Assembly: GCF_036568125.1 (NCBI RefSeq)
Contig: NZ_DATCTF010000010.1
Span: 248,001 to 312,000, forward strand
From: Magnetovibrio sp.
Lineage (GTDB): Bacteria > Pseudomonadota > Alphaproteobacteria > Rhodospirillales > Magnetovibrionaceae
Direction of reading: 5' to 3'
DNA length: 64,000 bases
Numbering within the stretch: the stretch's first letter is position 1; every line of letters starts with the position of its first letter. Made by a program: the position numbers and the translations under genes. Of this stretch, positions 32,920-43,104 are shown piece by piece. The notes beneath the pieces are model-generated. The model made no database searches, had not been told where the DNA came from, and saw only the letters and a program-made list of their open reading frames with translations.

Positions 32920-32996
32920 GGCTGGATAGCTCAGCTGGTTAGAGCGCGGCACTCATAATGCCGAGGTCGGCAGTTCAAGTCTGCCTCCAGCTACCA
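32920..32996 (+). tRNA. tRNA-Met(CAT)
   Basis: 77-nt tRNA with CCA encoded. The anticodon stem is CGGCA/TGCCG around the loop CTCATAA, giving anticodon CAT. The acceptor pairing is GGCTGGA/TCCAGCT, with a G-U first pair. Elongator Met is most likely; tRNA-Ile2 with lysidine-modified CAT is the alternative. The last 12 bases are repeated at 35349-35360, marking this gene as the attachment site of the following island. Confidence 0.93.
32985..32996 (+). repeat. Putative att site, left copy (tRNA 3' end)
   Basis: CTCCAGCTACCA, the 3' end of the tRNA-Met gene including CCA. It is identical to 35349-35360 in direct orientation. Confidence 0.7.
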
Positions 32997-33008
32997 CTTC
33001 TTAATAGG

Positions 33009-33042
33009 AATGCCCCGTAAGTTGTTGAAACTACGGGGCATT
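33009..33042 (+). terminator. Terminator downstream of tRNA-Met, inside the island
   Basis: 11-bp stem AATGCCCCGTA / TACGGGGCATT followed by TTCTTTTGTTTT. It ends tRNA transcription in the present arrangement. Confidence 0.85.
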
Positions 33043-33119
33043 TCTTTTGTTTTCGTTCTATTTGTCGGAATTAAGTCATTTATAGGAATGTAGCAAAAAC
33101 AATGAATTATACATGGTCG

Positions 33120-33150
33120 ATGGTAGCTGGTTAGTTTAACCAGCTACCAT
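33120..33150. repeat. Perfect hairpin containing a third copy of the att core
   Basis: 14-bp arms ATGGTAGCTGGTTA (33120-33133) and TAACCAGCTACCAT (33137-33150) with a 3-base loop. Each arm contains the 10-base tRNA end CCAGCTACCA, inverted in the left arm. It lies directly after the stop of the 75-aa ORF, so it may act as a terminator, or be a remnant of an earlier insertion junction. Confidence 0.7.
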
Positions 33151-33378
33151 TTAAATGGGATTGGAAGAAGTTGTTGTGAGTTCTGAACGTTCGTTATCAA
33201 CGTTTCTTTGGAGCTTTTGGCTTGGCAATTTTCTAGATAGCCCATTTGCCTGTGAGCTTTCCTCTACGACCTGCCTAGCCAATAAGTCGATTATTTGTGA
33301 AATAGGATCGGGTATGGATGAGAGCTGCTTTGCTTTTTCGACAGCACTCAGTTGTTTATCATGAACAGAAATGTTCAC
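33151..33378 (-). CDS. 75-aa unknown protein coupled to the OLD nuclease gene
   Basis: The frame is open from 33426, but GTG 33378 overlaps the TGA stop of the OLD-family gene as GTGA, the usual sign of translational coupling. The protein is hydrophilic and rich in Ser, Gln, Lys and Glu, begins MNISVHDKQLSAVEKAKQLS and has no Cys, membrane segment or recognised motif. Residues ~5-45 look helical and the C-terminal ~30 residues are probably disordered. It shares the AT-rich composition of the island. It could be an accessory or antitoxin-like partner; no family assignment is made. Confidence 0.55.
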   Translation of the reverse strand: MNISVHDKQLSAVEKAKQLSSIPDPISQIIDLLARQVVEESSQANGLSRKLPSQKLQRNVDNERSELTTTSSNPI

Positions 33379-35120
33379 GATCGAGCCGTTTTTACCAATT
33401 TTTCTAACTTGTCGATGTCGTTCCAACGAACAGCTCCATCTGGTAAGTTTTGTGCCGGGTCAATAAGAGCTTTTAAGAGCTGTGCGACCTTTTCATATGC
33501 TTCGCCTCCTTCTCGGAGTTCCAGAACAGCATTGTATGGTTTGTCAGATCGGTTTTCTGTCTTGAGGTACGCTGTTTCAAAATTGGTTATCGAAGCTACT
33601 AGCTGTATTTTTGAACTGTCATGAGCTGCGTTCACGACATCTAGAATATTTGAATTGATTGCCCAGGCTGGGTTCTTGTTGCCAGATGCTGCCAGTGGAG
33701 TATCTGAATCGTGTAAAATTGAATAACCAGTTTTGAACTGATTTAGGACTTTGCAAAGTGATGCGATTGTTGCTTTGCCTCTAGCGCGAACAATGTGAAC
33801 ATTTGGATAGTCACCACCGAGTTCACTTGCAACGAGTTTGAATGCTGAATACTCGGTGTCCCCTTCAACTAAAATTACATTTCCGCCAAAGAAAAATTCT
33901 GCGACATATGGGTCGCACAAGTTAAGAATTTTAAAATTGTCCTTGTCATCTTTGTCAAAGACCGAACTGTCTGGCCGAAAAATTGTCGTGCCATTGACTA
34001 CACCCGAAGCATCACGTTCTACCCTTGCCACCTTCGTGTGGTCTTGTGTGAAATCAATGAAGATCGGAGAGTGGGTGGTAAGCATAACTTGCCAATTTAA
34101 TTCGTGAGCCAAGTTATACAGCGTGTCGCGTGCCTCGCGGATTGCCTTTGGATGAAGACAAAGCTCCGGCTCATCAATGAGTAGAAGTCTTGGGCGTGCG
34201 CTTTTCGTTTCATTATGTTGTGAAAGTACTTTTAATGCGGCCCAGAGAAGGGTGCGTTGGGCACCGCTTCCTTGACGCGAGATGGGGAGCATCTCATCTT
34301 CTGGCCCCATAAAAAGATCACCTGAGGCACTGAAGAATAAGTCAGGGCTAACCTTTGTGAGCTCAGCTTCTGGCTTAAACTCGACTTTGTATCCAGGAAA
34401 CACTTTTTCGATTATGTCGGACAACTGTTGCGAAATGACAGCAATGTCAAACTTTGCTGATTCAGCAACATTATCGTGGAAAACTTCTACGAACTCAATC
34501 AGTTGTTCGAGGTCTGTCTTTTCATTGTCTTCCTCGCTTTTATAAAGAGATGCCTTTGCCTTAAGAATGTCCCGTGCAACTTTGTTCACTTCTTTTGCTT
34601 GGTCTTCAGGAGACTGGAATGCATGTACTGATATTGGTGTTGGTCTTCGGGATTTTGCAATATTAGCAGGGCCAAATGGGCGAGCAGGTTTGTCATCAGA
34701 TGTAGCCCATCGTCCTTCTTTGGGGAGGAAACCATAAATTTGGGGATCAACATTAACATCGGTCCAGGTGAACTTTTCTTGGATTAGAAAAGTACCATCC
34801 GAATTATCGACCCATTGGTCTCCTACGCCCGCATCGTTCTCAACCAGAGTCTCAACAATAACTGTAGGCAAGCGATCATCATTTACGTTGAGGTTCGGAA
34901 AGTCCTCGCGCTTCAACTGTGCATTCTTGCCGCTACCATGCATGATGGTCTCATAGGCTCTCAAAATTGAGCTTTTGCCGGAGTTATTGGGACCGACTAA
35001 CACCACGATGTCATCAATTTCAATTTCTACAGGAGTGGCGCCAATACCCCGAAAATTGGAAATTTTGATTTTACGAATTTTGCCTTCTGGTGCTGGATCT
35101 GAATTTGCAGCTTTTGCCAT
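33375..35120 (-). CDS. OLD-family ATP-dependent endonuclease (AAA + TOPRIM)
   Basis: 581 aa. The N-terminal ABC/SMC-type ATPase has Walker A VGPNNSGKSS (residues ~42-51), the signature region SRQGSGAQRTLLW, Walker B LLLIDEPELCLHPK and the His switch TTHSP. The C-terminal TOPRIM nuclease domain has the catalytic Glu in VILVEGDTEYSAFKL and the DxD motif in ILHDSDTPLA, so both active sites look intact. Length and order match class 1 OLD proteins and GajA of Gabija, but no UvrD-like GajB follows. ATG 35120 is preferred (AAAGAGG upstream) over ATG 35144. Likely phage defence or mobile-element function. Confidence 0.88.
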   Translation of the reverse strand: MAKAANSDPAPEGKIRKIKISNFRGIGATPVEIEIDDIVVLVGPNNSGKSSILRAYETIMHGSGKNAQLKREDFPNLNVNDDRLPTVIVETLVENDAGVGDQWVDNSDGTFLIQEKFTWTDVNVDPQIYGFLPKEGRWATSDDKPARPFGPANIAKSRRPTPISVHAFQSPEDQAKEVNKVARDILKAKASLYKSEEDNEKTDLEQLIEFVEVFHDNVAESAKFDIAVISQQLSDIIEKVFPGYKVEFKPEAELTKVSPDLFFSASGDLFMGPEDEMLPISRQGSGAQRTLLWAALKVLSQHNETKSARPRLLLIDEPELCLHPKAIREARDTLYNLAHELNWQVMLTTHSPIFIDFTQDHTKVARVERDASGVVNGTTIFRPDSSVFDKDDKDNFKILNLCDPYVAEFFFGGNVILVEGDTEYSAFKLVASELGGDYPNVHIVRARGKATIASLCKVLNQFKTGYSILHDSDTPLAASGNKNPAWAINSNILDVVNAAHDSSKIQLVASITNFETAYLKTENRSDKPYNAVLELREGGEAYEKVAQLLKALIDPAQNLPDGAVRWNDIDKLEKLVKTARS

Positions 35121-35348
35121 GAATGCCTCTTTGCAACAATGCATCTTATAGGAGTTTGATTTGTTGTGTTGGATAGCTTAGGGTTGATGAAGAGGCGGTG
35201 TCTAATTAAATTGTTTGGCATTCACGTGTTAGTATTTCAGGAAGCAGACAGATTGTTGAATATTGAACTTGGTATCACTGAGTAGATTTTTGTATTTTTT
35301 TATAAATATCAACGACTTCAATAAAAGGTCGGTTCTGGTTGTAACGGT

Positions 35349-35360
35349 CTCCAGCTACCA
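35349..35360 (+). repeat. Putative att site, right copy
   Basis: CTCCAGCTACCA, identical in sequence and orientation to the 3' end of tRNA-Met at 32985-32996. It marks the distal end of the island. Confidence 0.7.
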
Positions 35361-35364
35361 TTAA

Positions 35365-35400
35365 AAAAGCCCCGCAACCTCAAGAGGTTGCGGGGCTTTT
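35365..35400. terminator. Strong bidirectional terminator beside the island
   Basis: 14-bp stem AGCCCCGCAACCTC / GAGGTTGCGGGGCT, AA loop, with flanking A and T runs. It now terminates the Anbu operon (stop at 35414). It starts only four bases after the right att copy, so it was probably the original tRNA-Met terminator. Confidence 0.88.
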
Positions 35401-35413
35401 GCATGGGGTGTGC

Positions 35414-36145
35414 TCAAAACTTGAAGTCGGGCAGGGAGCAGAACGCTTGGCGCAGGGCCTCGCCCCATCCGTCCGAGATGGACTGGAAATAGGGGTCGTT
35501 CAGTTCGATCCGCTTGGTTTGGCCGACGTTGAAGCTGTTCGTTTCATAGATTTGCAGATCAAGCGGGAGGCCCACCGACAGGTTGGCCTTGACGGTGGAA
35601 TCGAACGACACCATCAGCAGCTTGATGGCGTCTTCGAAGCTCATGTCGGGATCGTAGGCGCGCACCAGGATGGGGCGGCCGTATTTGGTTTCGCCGATCT
35701 GAAAAAAGGGCGTGTCGGCGGAGGCTTCGATAAAGTTGCCTTCCGGATAGATCATGAACAGCCTGGGGTCGCCGGTGGAAACCTGACCGCCCAAAATCAG
35801 AGTGGCGTTGAAGGCCGAGTCGGCCGTTTGCCCCGACTGGGCGTTGGCTTGAATGACCTCGCGCACCAAGTCGCCGATGATCTGCGCGACTTGAAACATC
35901 GACGGCGCTTCGAGGATCGAAGGTGCGCGGTCGGCGGGCGCTTTGCTGCGCTCGTCAAGCAGACTGACGACGGCTTGGGTGGTGGCCAGGTTGCCCGCCG
36001 CCATCAGGGTGATGACGCGTTCGCCAGGCACCGACCAAGTGAACATTTTTTGAAAGGTGGCAATGTTGTCGACGCCCGCGTTGGTGCGCGTGTCGGACAT
36101 AAAAACCAAGCCCCGATTGAGGCGCATGCCGACGCAATAAGTCAT
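35414..36145 (-). CDS. Anbu / BPH bacterial proteasome-like peptidase
   Basis: 243-aa Ntn-hydrolase of the ancestral beta-subunit family. After removal of Met1 the N-terminal Thr (MTYCVGM) would be the nucleophile. Asp17 and a Lys at position 32 (SDTRTNAG, FQKMFTW) match the proteasome catalytic triad. Anbu proteins form ring or spiral assemblies and their physiological substrates are unknown. It is last in a four-gene operon with a transglutaminase-like protein, an alpha-E protein and a circularly permuted ATP-grasp protein, the known conserved neighbourhood for Anbu. Confidence 0.92.
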   Translation of the reverse strand: MTYCVGMRLNRGLVFMSDTRTNAGVDNIATFQKMFTWSVPGERVITLMAAGNLATTQAVVSLLDERSKAPADRAPSILEAPSMFQVAQIIGDLVREVIQANAQSGQTADSAFNATLILGGQVSTGDPRLFMIYPEGNFIEASADTPFFQIGETKYGRPILVRAYDPDMSFEDAIKLLMVSFDSTVKANLSVGLPLDLQIYETNSFNVGQTKRIELNDPYFQSISDGWGEALRQAFCSLPDFKF

Positions 36146-36178
36146 GGTTATACCGTCCAGGCTAATTATGGCGCGATG

Positions 36179-36979
36179 TTACTGCTGAACCTGGAGCGAC
36201 ACAATCATCGATTCATCGCTGTCGCCAAAGCGCAAACCGGAAATCGGCGCGGCCTCTTTGTAGTCGAGGCCCGTGGCGATGCGCACATAGCGTTCGTCGG
36301 GGGAAATGTTGTTGGAGACGTCGAAGCCGACCCATCCGATACCGGCCAGGTAAGCTTCGGCCCAGGCGTGGGTGGCGTCCTGATCGACGCGATCGTCCAT
36401 CATCAGATAGCCGCTGACATAGCGGGCCGGATAGTCCATCAGGCGCGCGGCGGCAATGAAGATGTGGGCGTGGTCTTGGCAAACCCCGTGACCATGGCTC
36501 AGCGCTTCTTCCGCGGTGGTTTCGGAATGGGTTTTTCCGGTTTCGTACGTAACCGTTTCTGAAATCAACCCAGACAAGGCGTGTAGGCGCTGGATGTCGC
36601 CGTCGAAGGCGGTGCCGAGTGTCTTGACCAGCTTGGCGAGTTTGGGGCCGGGCTGTGTCAGCGGCGTGTGTTTTTTGAAAAACCACAGCGGCGCAAATCC
36701 GCGATGTTCGCCGACGATGCCGTGGGTGTCGCTGGTTGTCACTTCCCCTTCGGAATGGATCGTCAGTTCGGTTTGGCCATCCTTGACGCTGACCAGCATG
36801 ACGTTGTTGTTGTGCTGGTCGACGAATTCGAGTTCCTTGGCGCCGCCTTCGATGGTGGTGCGCCAGCTGACGACCTGTTGCTCGTTGCGCGATGGCGGCG
36901 TGAGGCGGACCTGTTGCAACGCATAATGCACCGGCTCGTCGTATTGATATTTGGTGATGTGCGAAATCTTGAGCTGCAT
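36179..36979 (-). CDS. Transglutaminase-like cysteine peptidase
   Basis: 266 aa. The N-terminal beta-sandwich (LKISHITKYQYDEPVHYALQQVRL, in shortened form) is followed by a transglutaminase core. Its catalytic Cys is in HGVCQDHAHIFIAAARLMDYPARYVSGY, the His in ATHAWAEAYL, and the Asp in GWVGFDVSNN. In this operon type it is thought to cleave or form amide bonds on a peptide tag. Starts at ATG 36979, 20 bases after the alpha-E gene. Confidence 0.92.
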   Translation of the reverse strand: MQLKISHITKYQYDEPVHYALQQVRLTPPSRNEQQVVSWRTTIEGGAKELEFVDQHNNNVMLVSVKDGQTELTIHSEGEVTTSDTHGIVGEHRGFAPLWFFKKHTPLTQPGPKLAKLVKTLGTAFDGDIQRLHALSGLISETVTYETGKTHSETTAEEALSHGHGVCQDHAHIFIAAARLMDYPARYVSGYLMMDDRVDQDATHAWAEAYLAGIGWVGFDVSNNISPDERYVRIATGLDYKEAAPISGLRFGDSDESMIVSLQVQQ

Positions 36980-36999
36980 AAGCCTGTCCGTAAAGAGCG

Positions 37000-37941
37000 T
37001 TACCCGTAAAAACGGTAGTCTTGCTCGATCTGATTGCCCAGCTGGGTGTTGTCGCGAATGAAATCGACGATGAACTCGTGGAGCCCGGTGTCGAAAATGG
37101 TGTCGATCGGGGTGTCCTTCAGGCGCCGGTAAATGGCGTTGGAGTGGTCGTACGACGGCAGGTGCAGACCATAATCGTCTTTAAGGTACGTGAGATTGTC
37201 GACGATCTTGGCGTAGCAGAACGCCAACGAACGTGGCAGCCGGGTGTCGCGAATGAGAAAGTCGGCGATCCAGGTCGGATTGATGTCGCCGGGATTGAGC
37301 CAGCGGTACGCACGCTGAGCCGAAACCGAACGCAAAATCGATTCCCACTGCACGTTGTCGAGCGACGAGCCGACGAACGACGCCGACGGCAGCAAGACGT
37401 AATACTTCACATCGAGGATGCGCGAGGTGTTGTCGGCGCGTTCCAAAAAGGTGCCGAGGCGCGCGAAGTCATAAATGTCGTTGCGCAGCATGGTGCCGTG
37501 AAGCGCGCCGCGCACCAGCGAGCTTTGCTGGCGCACCGTGCCGAGGGTATCGGGAAGATCCCGTTCGTTGATCGGCTTGGCGAGAAGGTCTTTGAGGGTG
37601 ATCCAGCATTCGTTGGTGGCTTCCCACACTTCGCGGGTCAAGGCGGTGCGCACCATGCGGGCATTGTTGCGGGCGTTTTCGACCACCGACAACACGCTGG
37701 CCGGATTGGTGCGGTCGCGCAGCAAGAAGTCGATGACGTTGGCGGCTTCGTAGCGATCATAGGCGTTGGTGAACTGCTGCTGAGAGCCCGCGGCGGAAAC
37801 CACCGACGCCCATTCGTCTTCGGCCGCGGCCGAGCGCGTCAACGCCATGCGAAAACCCGCTTCGATGAGACGGGCGGTGTTTTCGCTGCGTTCAAGATAG
37901 CGGAACATCCAAAAGAGACCGCCTGCGGTTTTGCCGAGCAT
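37000..37941 (-). CDS. Alpha-E domain protein (DUF403)
   Basis: 313-aa all-helical protein. It begins MLGKTAGGLFWMFRYLERSENTARLIEAG, in shortened form, the alpha-E signature, and has FARLGTFLERADNTSRILDVKYYVLLP later. Function unknown; in the literature it is always found with the circularly permuted ATP-grasp and transglutaminase partners. It lies 7 bases after the ATP-grasp gene. Confidence 0.92.
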   Translation of the reverse strand: MLGKTAGGLFWMFRYLERSENTARLIEAGFRMALTRSAAAEDEWASVVSAAGSQQQFTNAYDRYEAANVIDFLLRDRTNPASVLSVVENARNNARMVRTALTREVWEATNECWITLKDLLAKPINERDLPDTLGTVRQQSSLVRGALHGTMLRNDIYDFARLGTFLERADNTSRILDVKYYVLLPSASFVGSSLDNVQWESILRSVSAQRAYRWLNPGDINPTWIADFLIRDTRLPRSLAFCYAKIVDNLTYLKDDYGLHLPSYDHSNAIYRRLKDTPIDTIFDTGLHEFIVDFIRDNTQLGNQIEQDYRFYG

Positions 37942-37948
37942 GGCTGCG

Positions 37949-39379
37949 CTATTCCTCCAAAACCCAGGTGTCCTTGGTGCCGCCGCCCTGGCTGGAATTG
38001 ACCACCAGCGAACCTTCTTTCAGCGCAACCCGCGTCAAGCCGCCCGGCGTGATGTTGATCTTGTTGGGCGACACCAAGACAAACGGCCTGAGGTCGACAT
38101 GGCGGGGCGAGAGACCTTTTTTGGTCAAAATAGGCACGGTCGAAAGCGACAGCGTCGGTTGGGCGATGTAGTTTCCGGGCTTGGCCTTGAGTTTGCTGGT
38201 GAAGGCGGCCAGTTCCTTTTTGCTGGCGGCCGGGCCGACCAACATGCCGTAGCCGCCCGATCCGTGGACTTCCTTGACCACCAGTTCGGTGAGATGGTCG
38301 AGCACATACGCCAGCGCCTCCGGCTCGGCGCAGCGCCATGTCGGGACGTTTTTCAGGATGGCTTTTTCACCGGTGTAGAACTCGACGATTTCCGGGATGT
38401 AGGAATAGATCGCCTTGTCGTCGGCGATGCCGGTGCCGGGGGCGTTGGCGATGGTGATGCCGCCCGCGCGGTAGACATCCATGATGCCCGGCACGCCCAA
38501 AAGAGAATTGGGATTGAAGTTCAGAGGGTCGAGAAATTCATCGTCCACGCGCCGATACAAAACGTCGATGGGTTCATAGCCCAACGTGGTGCGCATCGCG
38601 ACGCGCCCATCCACCACGCGCAGGTCGTGCCCTTCGACCAGTTCCGCGCCCATTTGATCGGCCAAAAAGGCATGCTCGAAATACGCCGAGTTGTGAATGC
38701 CGGGGGTGAGCACCGCGACCAGAGGACGGCTGCGCACGCAGGCCGAGGGCGCGCAAGCGCCAAGAGAGCGGCGCAGATTGGTCGGATAATCGCTGACCGG
38801 TTGCACTTTCACCTTGGCGAACAGTTCGGGGAACATGTGCAGCATCGTTTCGCGGTTTTCCAGCATGTAGGAAACCCCGGACGGCGTGCGCGCGTTGTCT
38901 TCGAGAACGAAAAACTCATCCTCGCCCGTGCGCACGATGTCGGTGCCGACGATATGCGTGTAGACGTTGCCCGGTGGCGAGACGCCGATCATTTGCGGCA
39001 AGAAGGCATCGTTTTGTGCGATCAGTTCCGCAGGGATGCGTCCGGCACGGATGATTTCCTGGCGGTGGTAAAGATCATGCAGGAAGGCGTTGATGGCGCG
39101 CACGCGTTGCTCGATGCCGCGCGACAAGCGGCTCCATTCGCGTTCTGAAATGATGCGCGGAATGACGTCGAAGGGGATCAGCCGTTCGGCGGCTTGTTCC
39201 TGGCCGTAGACGTTGAAGGTGATGCCGGTTCGTCGGAAGAAGGCTTCTGATTCTGCTGTTTTCTTCTTCAATCGGCTGGGGTTTTCCCCATCCATCCAAT
39301 TGCGGTAAACCTTGTATGGCTCTCGGACGCTTTCGTCCGCGCCAGACATTTCGTCGAATGGCCTGATTGAATCACTCAT
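37949..39379 (-). CDS. Circularly permuted ATP-grasp type 2 protein
   Basis: 476 aa (DUF404/DUF407). Predicted ATP-dependent carboxylate-amine ligase, probably attaching amino acids to a small peptide or other acceptor. Visible motifs are RAINAFLHDLYHRQEIIRAG, EDNARTPSGVSYMLENR, VVKEVHGSGGYGMLVGP (ATP-binding loop) and the C-terminal LVVNSSQGGGTKDTWVL. First gene of the Anbu operon; the promoter lies in the 213-base divergent gap 39380-39592. Confidence 0.93.
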   Translation of the reverse strand: MSDSIRPFDEMSGADESVREPYKVYRNWMDGENPSRLKKKTAESEAFFRRTGITFNVYGQEQAAERLIPFDVIPRIISEREWSRLSRGIEQRVRAINAFLHDLYHRQEIIRAGRIPAELIAQNDAFLPQMIGVSPPGNVYTHIVGTDIVRTGEDEFFVLEDNARTPSGVSYMLENRETMLHMFPELFAKVKVQPVSDYPTNLRRSLGACAPSACVRSRPLVAVLTPGIHNSAYFEHAFLADQMGAELVEGHDLRVVDGRVAMRTTLGYEPIDVLYRRVDDEFLDPLNFNPNSLLGVPGIMDVYRAGGITIANAPGTGIADDKAIYSYIPEIVEFYTGEKAILKNVPTWRCAEPEALAYVLDHLTELVVKEVHGSGGYGMLVGPAASKKELAAFTSKLKAKPGNYIAQPTLSLSTVPILTKKGLSPRHVDLRPFVLVSPNKINITPGGLTRVALKEGSLVVNSSQGGGTKDTWVLEE

Positions 39380-42654: not shown

Positions 42655-43104
42655 TCACCGTCGTTTTGCAGCTTGGACCGTAGTTTCCAATGCGTTGAGA
42701 AAAGCCGAGCGGTCGGATTTTCCAAACGGTCGAGGGCCGCCGGTGATTTCACCGCTTTCACGCAAGTTGGCCATGAGTTCACGATTGGCCAAAGCCATGC
42801 CGATGCCGTCTTCGGTGAACCGTTCGCCGTTGGGTTTTAGGGCGAAGGCTTCTCTTTCCAGGCAACGTGCAGCAAGCGGGATGTCGTTGGTGATGCAGAT
42901 ATCGGCTTTGCCGATGTGCTCGGCGATCCAATCGTCGGCGGCGTCCGCGCCTTGGGCGACGATGACCAATTCCACCAATGGATTTTGGCTGGGGCGAATG
43001 CCGCCGTCGCTGACCATATAGGTCTTGAGGTTGTGGCGCGTTGCGACGCGCAGGGTTTCGTCCTTAACGGGGCAAGCGTCGGCGTCGATATAGATGTTTA
43101 CCAT
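42655..43104 (-). CDS. YaiI/YqxD family protein (DUF188)
   Basis: 149 aa, PIN-like fold nuclease-related family. Starts NIYIDADACPVKDE, with CITNDIPLAARCLE and a C-terminal KSDRSAFLNALE, all characteristic of DUF188. Function unknown. Single gene. Confidence 0.92.
   Translation of the reverse strand: MVNIYIDADACPVKDETLRVATRHNLKTYMVSDGGIRPSQNPLVELVIVAQGADAADDWIAEHIGKADICITNDIPLAARCLEREAFALKPNGERFTEDGIGMALANRELMANLRESGEITGGPRPFGKSDRSAFLNALETTVQAAKRR

Follow-up and report, generated by a model that had tools for sequence, protein, structure and literature searches.

A locus of Magnetovibrio sp. (assembly GCF_036568125.1), in which a gene for an OLD-family nuclease follows a tRNA-Met gene, bears on the question of how small defence genes without mobility genes of their own come to lie at conserved tRNA sites. 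We analysed a stretch of 64,000 nt of this genome (contig NZ_DATCTF010000010.1, 248,001-312,000, forward strand), hereafter called the window, to which coordinates refer unless another sequence is named. After the tRNA-Met come 2,364 bp of AT-rich DNA, closed by an exact copy of the last 12 bases of the tRNA (Table 1). This small tRNA-Met island, which lacks an integrase and carries a probable one-gene defence, is real, and in our view it is probably a compact, non-autonomous element, similar to a cis-mobilizable element (CIME), that was inserted at the tRNA-Met 3' end by site-specific recombination with the integrase off board.

Structure of the island

A first-pass annotation of this DNA had reported that the tRNA end recurs beyond about 2.36 kb of AT-rich DNA holding one OLD-family gene and one small open reading frame (ORF), and our data bear this out. 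The 12-mer CTCCAGCTACCA occurs exactly at 32985-32996 and 35349-35360, with no further exact copy in the 3.39-Mb assembly (19 contigs, 95% complete), and the tRNA-Met gene has one full-length match in its own genome, namely itself, and two partial ones. The G+C content (GC) is 0.426 between the repeats against 0.585 for the whole window, and the lowest-GC stretch of 2,352 bp elsewhere in the window stands at 0.517. By ORFs and Pfam, the OLD gene and the small ORF are the only convincing genes inside the island. Given the 12-mer, about 0.0006 same-strand copies per 10 kb are expected by chance; when a looser simulation admitted any exact match to the last 30 nt of the tRNA within 3 kb, a length of 12 was reached in at least 1 of 500 cases. 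The length of the repeat by itself is not overwhelming as evidence for insertion, so that the case is carried by the anchoring of the repeat at the tRNA 3' end, the break in GC and the terminator.

Terminator-like hairpins are found at both borders. The right one has perfect 17-bp arms (35365-35381/35384-35400); those of the left one (33003-33019/33032-33048) are 88% complementary, and the segment 32990-33050 folds with -25.9 kcal/mol (z -6.8). Each hairpin was aligned locally to the sequence following tRNA-Met in five relatives of the same genus (G001-G005) and the scores were compared with those of shuffles. With G001-G004 the right hairpin outscores at least 99% of shuffles, and with G005 it fails. 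The left one does better than every shuffle with G003, has a borderline value (0.018) with G002 and fails with G001, G004 and G005. The right hairpin scores above the left in four of the five, by just 16 to 15 in G003, and G005 fits neither; the region of the right hairpin is 79% identical to G004 over 52 bp (E 8e-4, with the 12-bp repeat counted in). Because it resembles the tRNA-Met flanks of G001-G004, the right-hand hairpin is probably the native, displaced terminator of tRNA-Met, as had been proposed, and the second terminator, which had been placed inside the island at 33009-33042, was found again as the left hairpin, probably brought in with the insert.

Table 1. Features of the tRNA-Met island, with positions in the window.
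Feature	Position	Strand	Basis and remarks
tRNA-Met (CAT), target gene	32920-32996	+	ARAGORN; left repeat formed by its last 12 bases (32985-32996)
Terminator-like hairpin now after the tRNA, probably arrived with the insert	33003-33048	+	Inverted repeat, fold
Palindrome with perfect 14-bp arms	33120-33150	.	Inverted repeats and fold; both arms contain CCAGCTACCA (tRNA 3' end)
Inner att-like copy CCAGCTACCATTTAAA, alternative left border of the OLD cassette	33140-33155	+	15/16 against the right junction
Small ORF, 75 codons, orphan	33151-33378	-	GTG start overlaps the OLD stop (GTGA)
Class 1 OLD nuclease	33375-35120	-	581 aa from ATG 35120 (589 aa from 35144); PADLOC, Pfam, fold
Right-end unit, 59 bp, ends at the tRNA CCA	35302-35360	+	Alignment to relatives; 35302-35348 is not tRNA repeat
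Right repeat CTCCAGCTACCA, displaced tRNA 3' end	35349-35360	+	Exact repeat
Perfect hairpin, probably the original tRNA-Met terminator	35365-35400	+	Inverted repeat; local alignment to relatives' flanks

A right end shared with relatives

The 47 bp that precede the right repeat (35302-35348) are common to relatives, and together with the repeat they form a unit of 59 bp. In G011, a genome from a different genus of the same family, a second copy of the tRNA-Met end lies 4,697 bp after the tRNA-Met, and the stretch so delimited encodes a LonB-like protease, a Host_attach/baeRF protein, a cytochrome-like gene and an orphan ORF, with no integrase. The sequence running into this second copy matches the right end of the island over 49 bp (78%, E 3e-5), and G004 does so over 69 bp (77%, E 7.5e-6 with one genome searched), the 12 bp being included both times. 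When the 12 bp are left out, the 47-mer of G004 finds its best match in the whole window exactly at 35302 (32/47, the next being 26), that of G011 is also best there (30 vs 27 for the next), and the maximum of 20,000 local shuffles at this position is 23.

A pattern search across the order (317 genomes, our own included) returned 16 places in 15 genomes, compared with about 30 for a reversed-pattern control, and most of these places are therefore chance matches. We kept the four that are followed by a tRNA-Met-like end (L175, L176, L177 and L182) and dropped the other 12, which added two places with the unit and such an end, on contig 22 of G004 and contig 64 of G011. A sequence model (R1) was built from the four copies, which match it by construction; at E<=0.05 it detects 25 places in 24 of the 317 genomes, among them one new full-length copy, diverged, in G015 (E 2e-4), the remaining 20 being partial or weak. 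Genuine additional copies of the 12-mer in the 18 genomes of the family carry the unit in three cases out of three. One further 12-mer, in G017, was rejected, as it stems from the end of a contig that overlaps another.

To the eye, the unit looks like the 3' half of a tRNA-Met. Of the four other copies, the two in G011 and the one in G015 each have a terminator-like hairpin behind them. A covariation test on the five sequences, which has little power, found one pair changed on both sides, and 104 of 500 shuffles scored as high. Searched against Rfam, the window and the copies of G004 and G011 gave weak matches, such as Thr_leader (E 0.087, 35323-35404), and none that reached the gathering score. 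The pattern search over the class, which at three mismatches misses the window's own copy and may thus overlook diverged ones, hit 5 of 385 genomes with about 10 matches in the control, and its hits are hence due to chance. The G004 copy, used as query, matched nothing in phages or in plasmids; in viral contigs a short pattern matched once, apparently in coding sequence, and a second pattern not at all. Two looser patterns had eight matches in viral contigs, which at 23-32 of 59 positions identical to the G004 unit were judged to be chance and discarded. The shared right-end unit favours a defined kind of insertion.

On contig 22 of G004, a 2,583-codon repetitive adhesin-like gene (L183, 11078-18829) begins at a distance of 325 bp from the unit; several relatives of the 5' region of this gene occur in G004 itself and in related genomes.

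The cargo

The nuclease is a class 1 OLD. PADLOC scores Old at 284 bits, followed by AriA (121) and GajA (93), and Pfam recognizes AAA_15 and OLD-like_TOPRIM in one protein, with an N-terminal ABC ATPase and a C-terminal Toprim domain. Judging from its good ribosome site, the ATG at 35120 is the likely start. The best solved relative by sequence is the Thermus scotoductus OLD (6P74), which is also the top Foldseek match of the predicted model (E 9.6e-22, template modelling scores 0.55/0.62, root mean square deviation 8.8; mean predicted local distance difference test score 76.7). Metal-binding residues reported for the T. scotoductus enzyme in the portion of PMC7049728 that deals with them are E377, D381, D431 and D433; E427, E431, D479 and D481 align with these, E431 being a Glu in place of Asp, and the four are invariant in 25 aligned sequences (our own and 24 relatives). 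From the shorter start they are numbered E419, E423, D471 and D473. Counterparts of S478, E480 and R487 were assigned by motif only. The protein is thus like P2 Old and 6P74 a stand-alone ABC ATPase plus Toprim with matching catalytic residues, and unlike them it is followed by a small coupled ORF. Assignment to class 2 (GajA of the Gabija system) was rejected, given the lack of an adjacent GajB helicase and the lower score of the GajA profile. The neighbours of the gene are, on one side, the 75-aa orphan ORF and then the tRNA, and on the other side an Anbu gene, with no UvrD-like helicase or reverse transcriptase.

Scoring of four first-look candidates per genome revealed no OLD relative at E<=1e-60 among the other 316 genomes of the order, where weaker OLD proteins may nevertheless occur. 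A search of genome contigs and viral contigs with the single protein gave no relative. With an alignment of four sequences, 71 loci in genome contigs and four in viral contigs were recovered, the full-length ones at most 48-49% identical; over 24 aligned loci, identity ranges from 38 to 49%, and the relatives are spread over Bacillota, Bacteroidota, Planctomycetota, Proteobacteria and others. A tRNA lies near the OLD gene in five of the 49 loci scanned out of the 71, including one (L091) with tRNA-Met about 3 kb away, which argues that OLD is not a habitual tRNA cargo. Since P2 Old is the only class 1 protein established against a phage in what PMC10568477 states on this group, the anti-phage role is taken from the family, and the protein most likely acts against phage DNA. 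P2 Old and the OLD of the window are 24% identical. E. coli ybjD is reportedly the subject of a 2026 report.

The small ORF had no match in Pfam, PADLOC (91-aa form), NCBIfam (75-aa form) or PHROG (both forms), tblastn against the loci collected gave, its own locus apart, no match below E 1.4, and comparison by eye with the small genes that follow OLD in three plasmids revealed no evident relative.

The tRNA-Met site in relatives

The tRNA-Met regions of 14 relatives were examined, 12 from the same family and two from another; several of these stretches stop within 0.7 kb of the tRNA. Blocks of genes upstream of the tRNA match in 11 of the 13 relatives with sequence there, the two exceptions being those of the other family. 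By Pfam, these blocks include a dihaem cytochrome and a PqqD-like gene, and they also contain genes that we take to be a dihydroorotase and an oxidoreductase. Gene content after the tRNA-Met varies between genomes. The homolog of a YaiI-family gene (window 42655-43104), 9.7 kb from the tRNA here, is located about 0.5-5.7 kb past it in G001, G003, G004, G010 and G012, and the window stretch from about 43.2 kb follows tRNA-Met in G002, G005 and G007. The tRNA end recurs in the stretch of G011 and in none of the other 13. Strains free of the island had been expected to continue from tRNA-Met straight into TTAAAAAAGCCCCGC and the Anbu operon; this arrangement was not seen in the relatives, which carry other genes after tRNA-Met, and the site is therefore variable.

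The tRNA-Met gene has an A at position 7 (window 32926), as does that of G033 from another family, and those members of the family for which the 5' half was available have a G. The A restores an A-U pair with U66.

Search for an integrase

That the island is without an integrase, as the first-pass annotation held, is confirmed by its ORFs and by Pfam, and no remnant similar to the genome's own integrases was detected between the repeats (tblastx against the ten integrase loci, no match better than E 0.09). An integrase elsewhere in the genome that uses this tRNA had also been suggested; none of the ten PF00589 matches in the genome is flanked by a tRNA-Met within 1.5 kb. At three loci of the same genome (L034, L036 and L041), integrase genes are found no more than 0.7 kb from a tRNA (tRNA-Thr, tRNA-Ser and tRNA-Val), and these loci are likely ordinary tRNA islands. 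No integrase-bearing element with the shared end was found either, the 317 genomes of the order, phages, plasmids and viral contigs having yielded only the copies described above. Around the unit copies, the check for integrases covered six ORFs of G011 by Pfam scan, and G004, G015 and the second G011 copy by reading of ORF lists.

Relation to known elements

CIMEs are flanked by attachment (att) sites and have no integration or transfer genes, according to the part of PMC5704250 devoted to them. They descend by decay from integrative elements and are mobilized in cis once an element has accreted at their att site. Our island is similar in having att-like repeats at both ends, an intact tRNA on the left and a native-like terminator on the right, and in lacking integrase and transfer genes. 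It differs in that no parent integrative and conjugative element, integrative and mobilizable element or prophage with the same ends was found, in its size of just 2.4 kb, and in a right end common to a second integrase-less stretch with different genes. The order and orientation of an intact tRNA, an island and a displaced tRNA 3' fragment are those of the tRNA islands detected by Islander. That program, as its procedure is set out in the pertinent section of PMC4383910, accepts a candidate only if an integrase gene lies in it or overlaps it, and has a size floor of 2 kb; the present island, which is slightly above the floor, would be rejected, and searches of this kind would miss such islands. 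Tycheposons, as characterized in a portion of PMC10872708, are also tRNA-bordered cargo with tRNA-Met among their sites, but they carry a tyrosine recombinase, which is lacking here. Clusters of attC sites lacking integrases (CALINs) and miniature inverted-repeat transposable elements (MITEs) are served in trans by an enzyme that is not on board, as one part of PMC11389934 describes, and the same off-board supply of recombination may apply to our island. Its ends, however, appear to be tRNA-Met 3' sequence plus a family-specific arm, and not attC sites or transposon inverted repeats; a reading as integron attC was dropped. In the open-licence literature on islands, CIMEs, tycheposons and tRNA-associated defence, no source, as far as its accessible parts go, appears to describe this end or the two-genus pair. 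The kind of element is already known, and the shared right end is new.

Origin of the island

Integration into the tRNA 3' end, the central claim of the first-pass annotation, is well supported by the unique 12-bp repeat, the low GC, the right-hand terminator and the lack of a close OLD in the order. From the anatomy of the locus, we suggest that a circle of the element carried a copy of the tRNA-Met 3' end, and that a crossover would have rebuilt the tRNA from the element's copy, with the element's terminator on the left, and would have shifted the original 12-base end and the native terminator to the right. The recombinase would be off board, either lost or supplied by another element or another cell, and was most likely a tyrosine integrase. 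Positions 35302-35348 are probably the element's own end, a putative recombinase-binding arm, and the same end would have been reused at the edge of the integrase-less tRNA-Met stretch of G011, in a second genus of the family. As cargo, the element would bring in a single-gene OLD whose ABC ATPase and Toprim DNase domain are predicted to cut invading DNA, together with an orphan small ORF that appears to be translationally coupled to it.

Several observations weigh against this interpretation. The repeat is just 12 bp long, and the exact empty site, with tRNA-Met joined directly to TTAAAAAAGCC, occurs in no genome inspected. No tyrosine integrase that uses tRNA-Met was found in the genome itself, serine recombinases not having been searched. 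The 4.7-kb stretch of G011 has the GC of its surroundings and host-like genes, and may not be a mobile island. Finally, the unit copies of G004, G011 contig 64 and G015 (the last one weak) have no tRNA in the fetched DNA (27, 4.2 and 11 kb), and the genes around them look ordinary; such copies imply that the unit is not simply displaced tRNA sequence, and a plain attR would not predict them.

The strongest competitor, to which we grant somewhat less than an even chance, is that of a plain decayed remnant, that is, a CIME left by an integrase-bearing island or prophage at tRNA-Met that lost everything except its att sites and the OLD gene and is now immobile. Decay is the usual origin of att-flanked DNA without integrase in the account that PMC5704250 gives of such elements, and the integrases near tRNA-Thr, tRNA-Ser and tRNA-Val make ordinary tRNA islands likely in this genome. 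However, the non-coding DNA that is left amounts to no more than about 150 and 200 bp, in which no integrase match rises above the level reported above, so that the decay would have been very clean, and the same right end closes a second integrase-less stretch with other genes.

Alternatively, the 59-bp unit could derive from tRNA-Met and be a dispersed RNA gene or repeat that brings a terminator of its own, the cargo having arrived otherwise, for instance by homologous recombination. This would account for the copies without a nearby tRNA, for the hairpins behind most of the other copies and for the likeness to half a tRNA-Met, but neither the covariation test, weak as it is with five sequences, nor Rfam at its gathering score lends it support, and it would take a strong coincidence for two of the five copies to lie less than 5 kb from tRNA-Met and to be oriented as it is, even though both of them seeded the search. 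We regard this explanation as unlikely.

It is equally doubtful that the OLD cassette is a smaller unit (33140-35366), lying between CCAGCTACCATTTAAA and CCAGCTACCATTAAAA in tandem with an att scar of older date, 153 bp away from the tRNA. The segments 33140-33155 and 35351-35366 are identical at 15 of 16 positions, where the best of 300 order-1 simulations reached 13, and the small ORF stops inside this repeat; the inner copy, however, is half of a perfect palindrome that directly adjoins the end of the small ORF and could be the hairpin of the operon, and the intermediate was found in no relative. A chance repeat beside a vertically inherited AT-rich gene is highly improbable, for although 12 bases can recur in 3 kb at the simulated rate given above if any part of the tRNA end is allowed, the uniqueness of the repeat, its 3' anchoring, the displaced terminator, the GC break and the lack of a close OLD in the order all argue otherwise.

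Returning to insertion by an off-board integrase, a bolder version would see here a family of integrase-less, cargo-only cassettes whose 59-bp end mimics the 3' half of tRNA-Met and for which a recombinase acting in trans provides insertion, at tRNA-Met and at times in other places. We put this forward as a speculation with rather little probability. If true, it would represent a tRNA-targeted counterpart of MITEs or CALINs, here with a one-gene phage defence. If the end is recognised in trans, a minimal defence cargo could spread without the cost of an integrase of its own, and an end common to two integrase-free stretches provides a concrete sequence for tracing the missing recombinase and further members.

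Genes to the right of the island

The operon of the proteasome-like Anbu (35414-39379, minus strand) also comprises transglutaminase, alpha-E and circularly permuted ATP-grasp genes, and it is located between the island and the conserved YaiI gene. The window from 35.4 to 39.4 kb, which holds this operon, is matched by none of the tRNA-Met regions of the 14 relatives. With 45-50% identity, the Anbu homologs of G003, G005, G006 and G007 are more distant, and no tRNA lies less than 1.5 kb from them. In G049, from another family of the order, a locus on contig 31 (L028, 1501-1842) encodes the last 114 Anbu codons, 82% identical to those of the window, with the first half absent and, by eye, nothing in its surroundings that resembles the tRNA-Met neighbourhood. 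None of the other Anbu homologs found in a search of 60 relatives exceeds 55% identity (52% where nearly the whole length is aligned), and the G049 fragment is perhaps a truncated, transferred copy.

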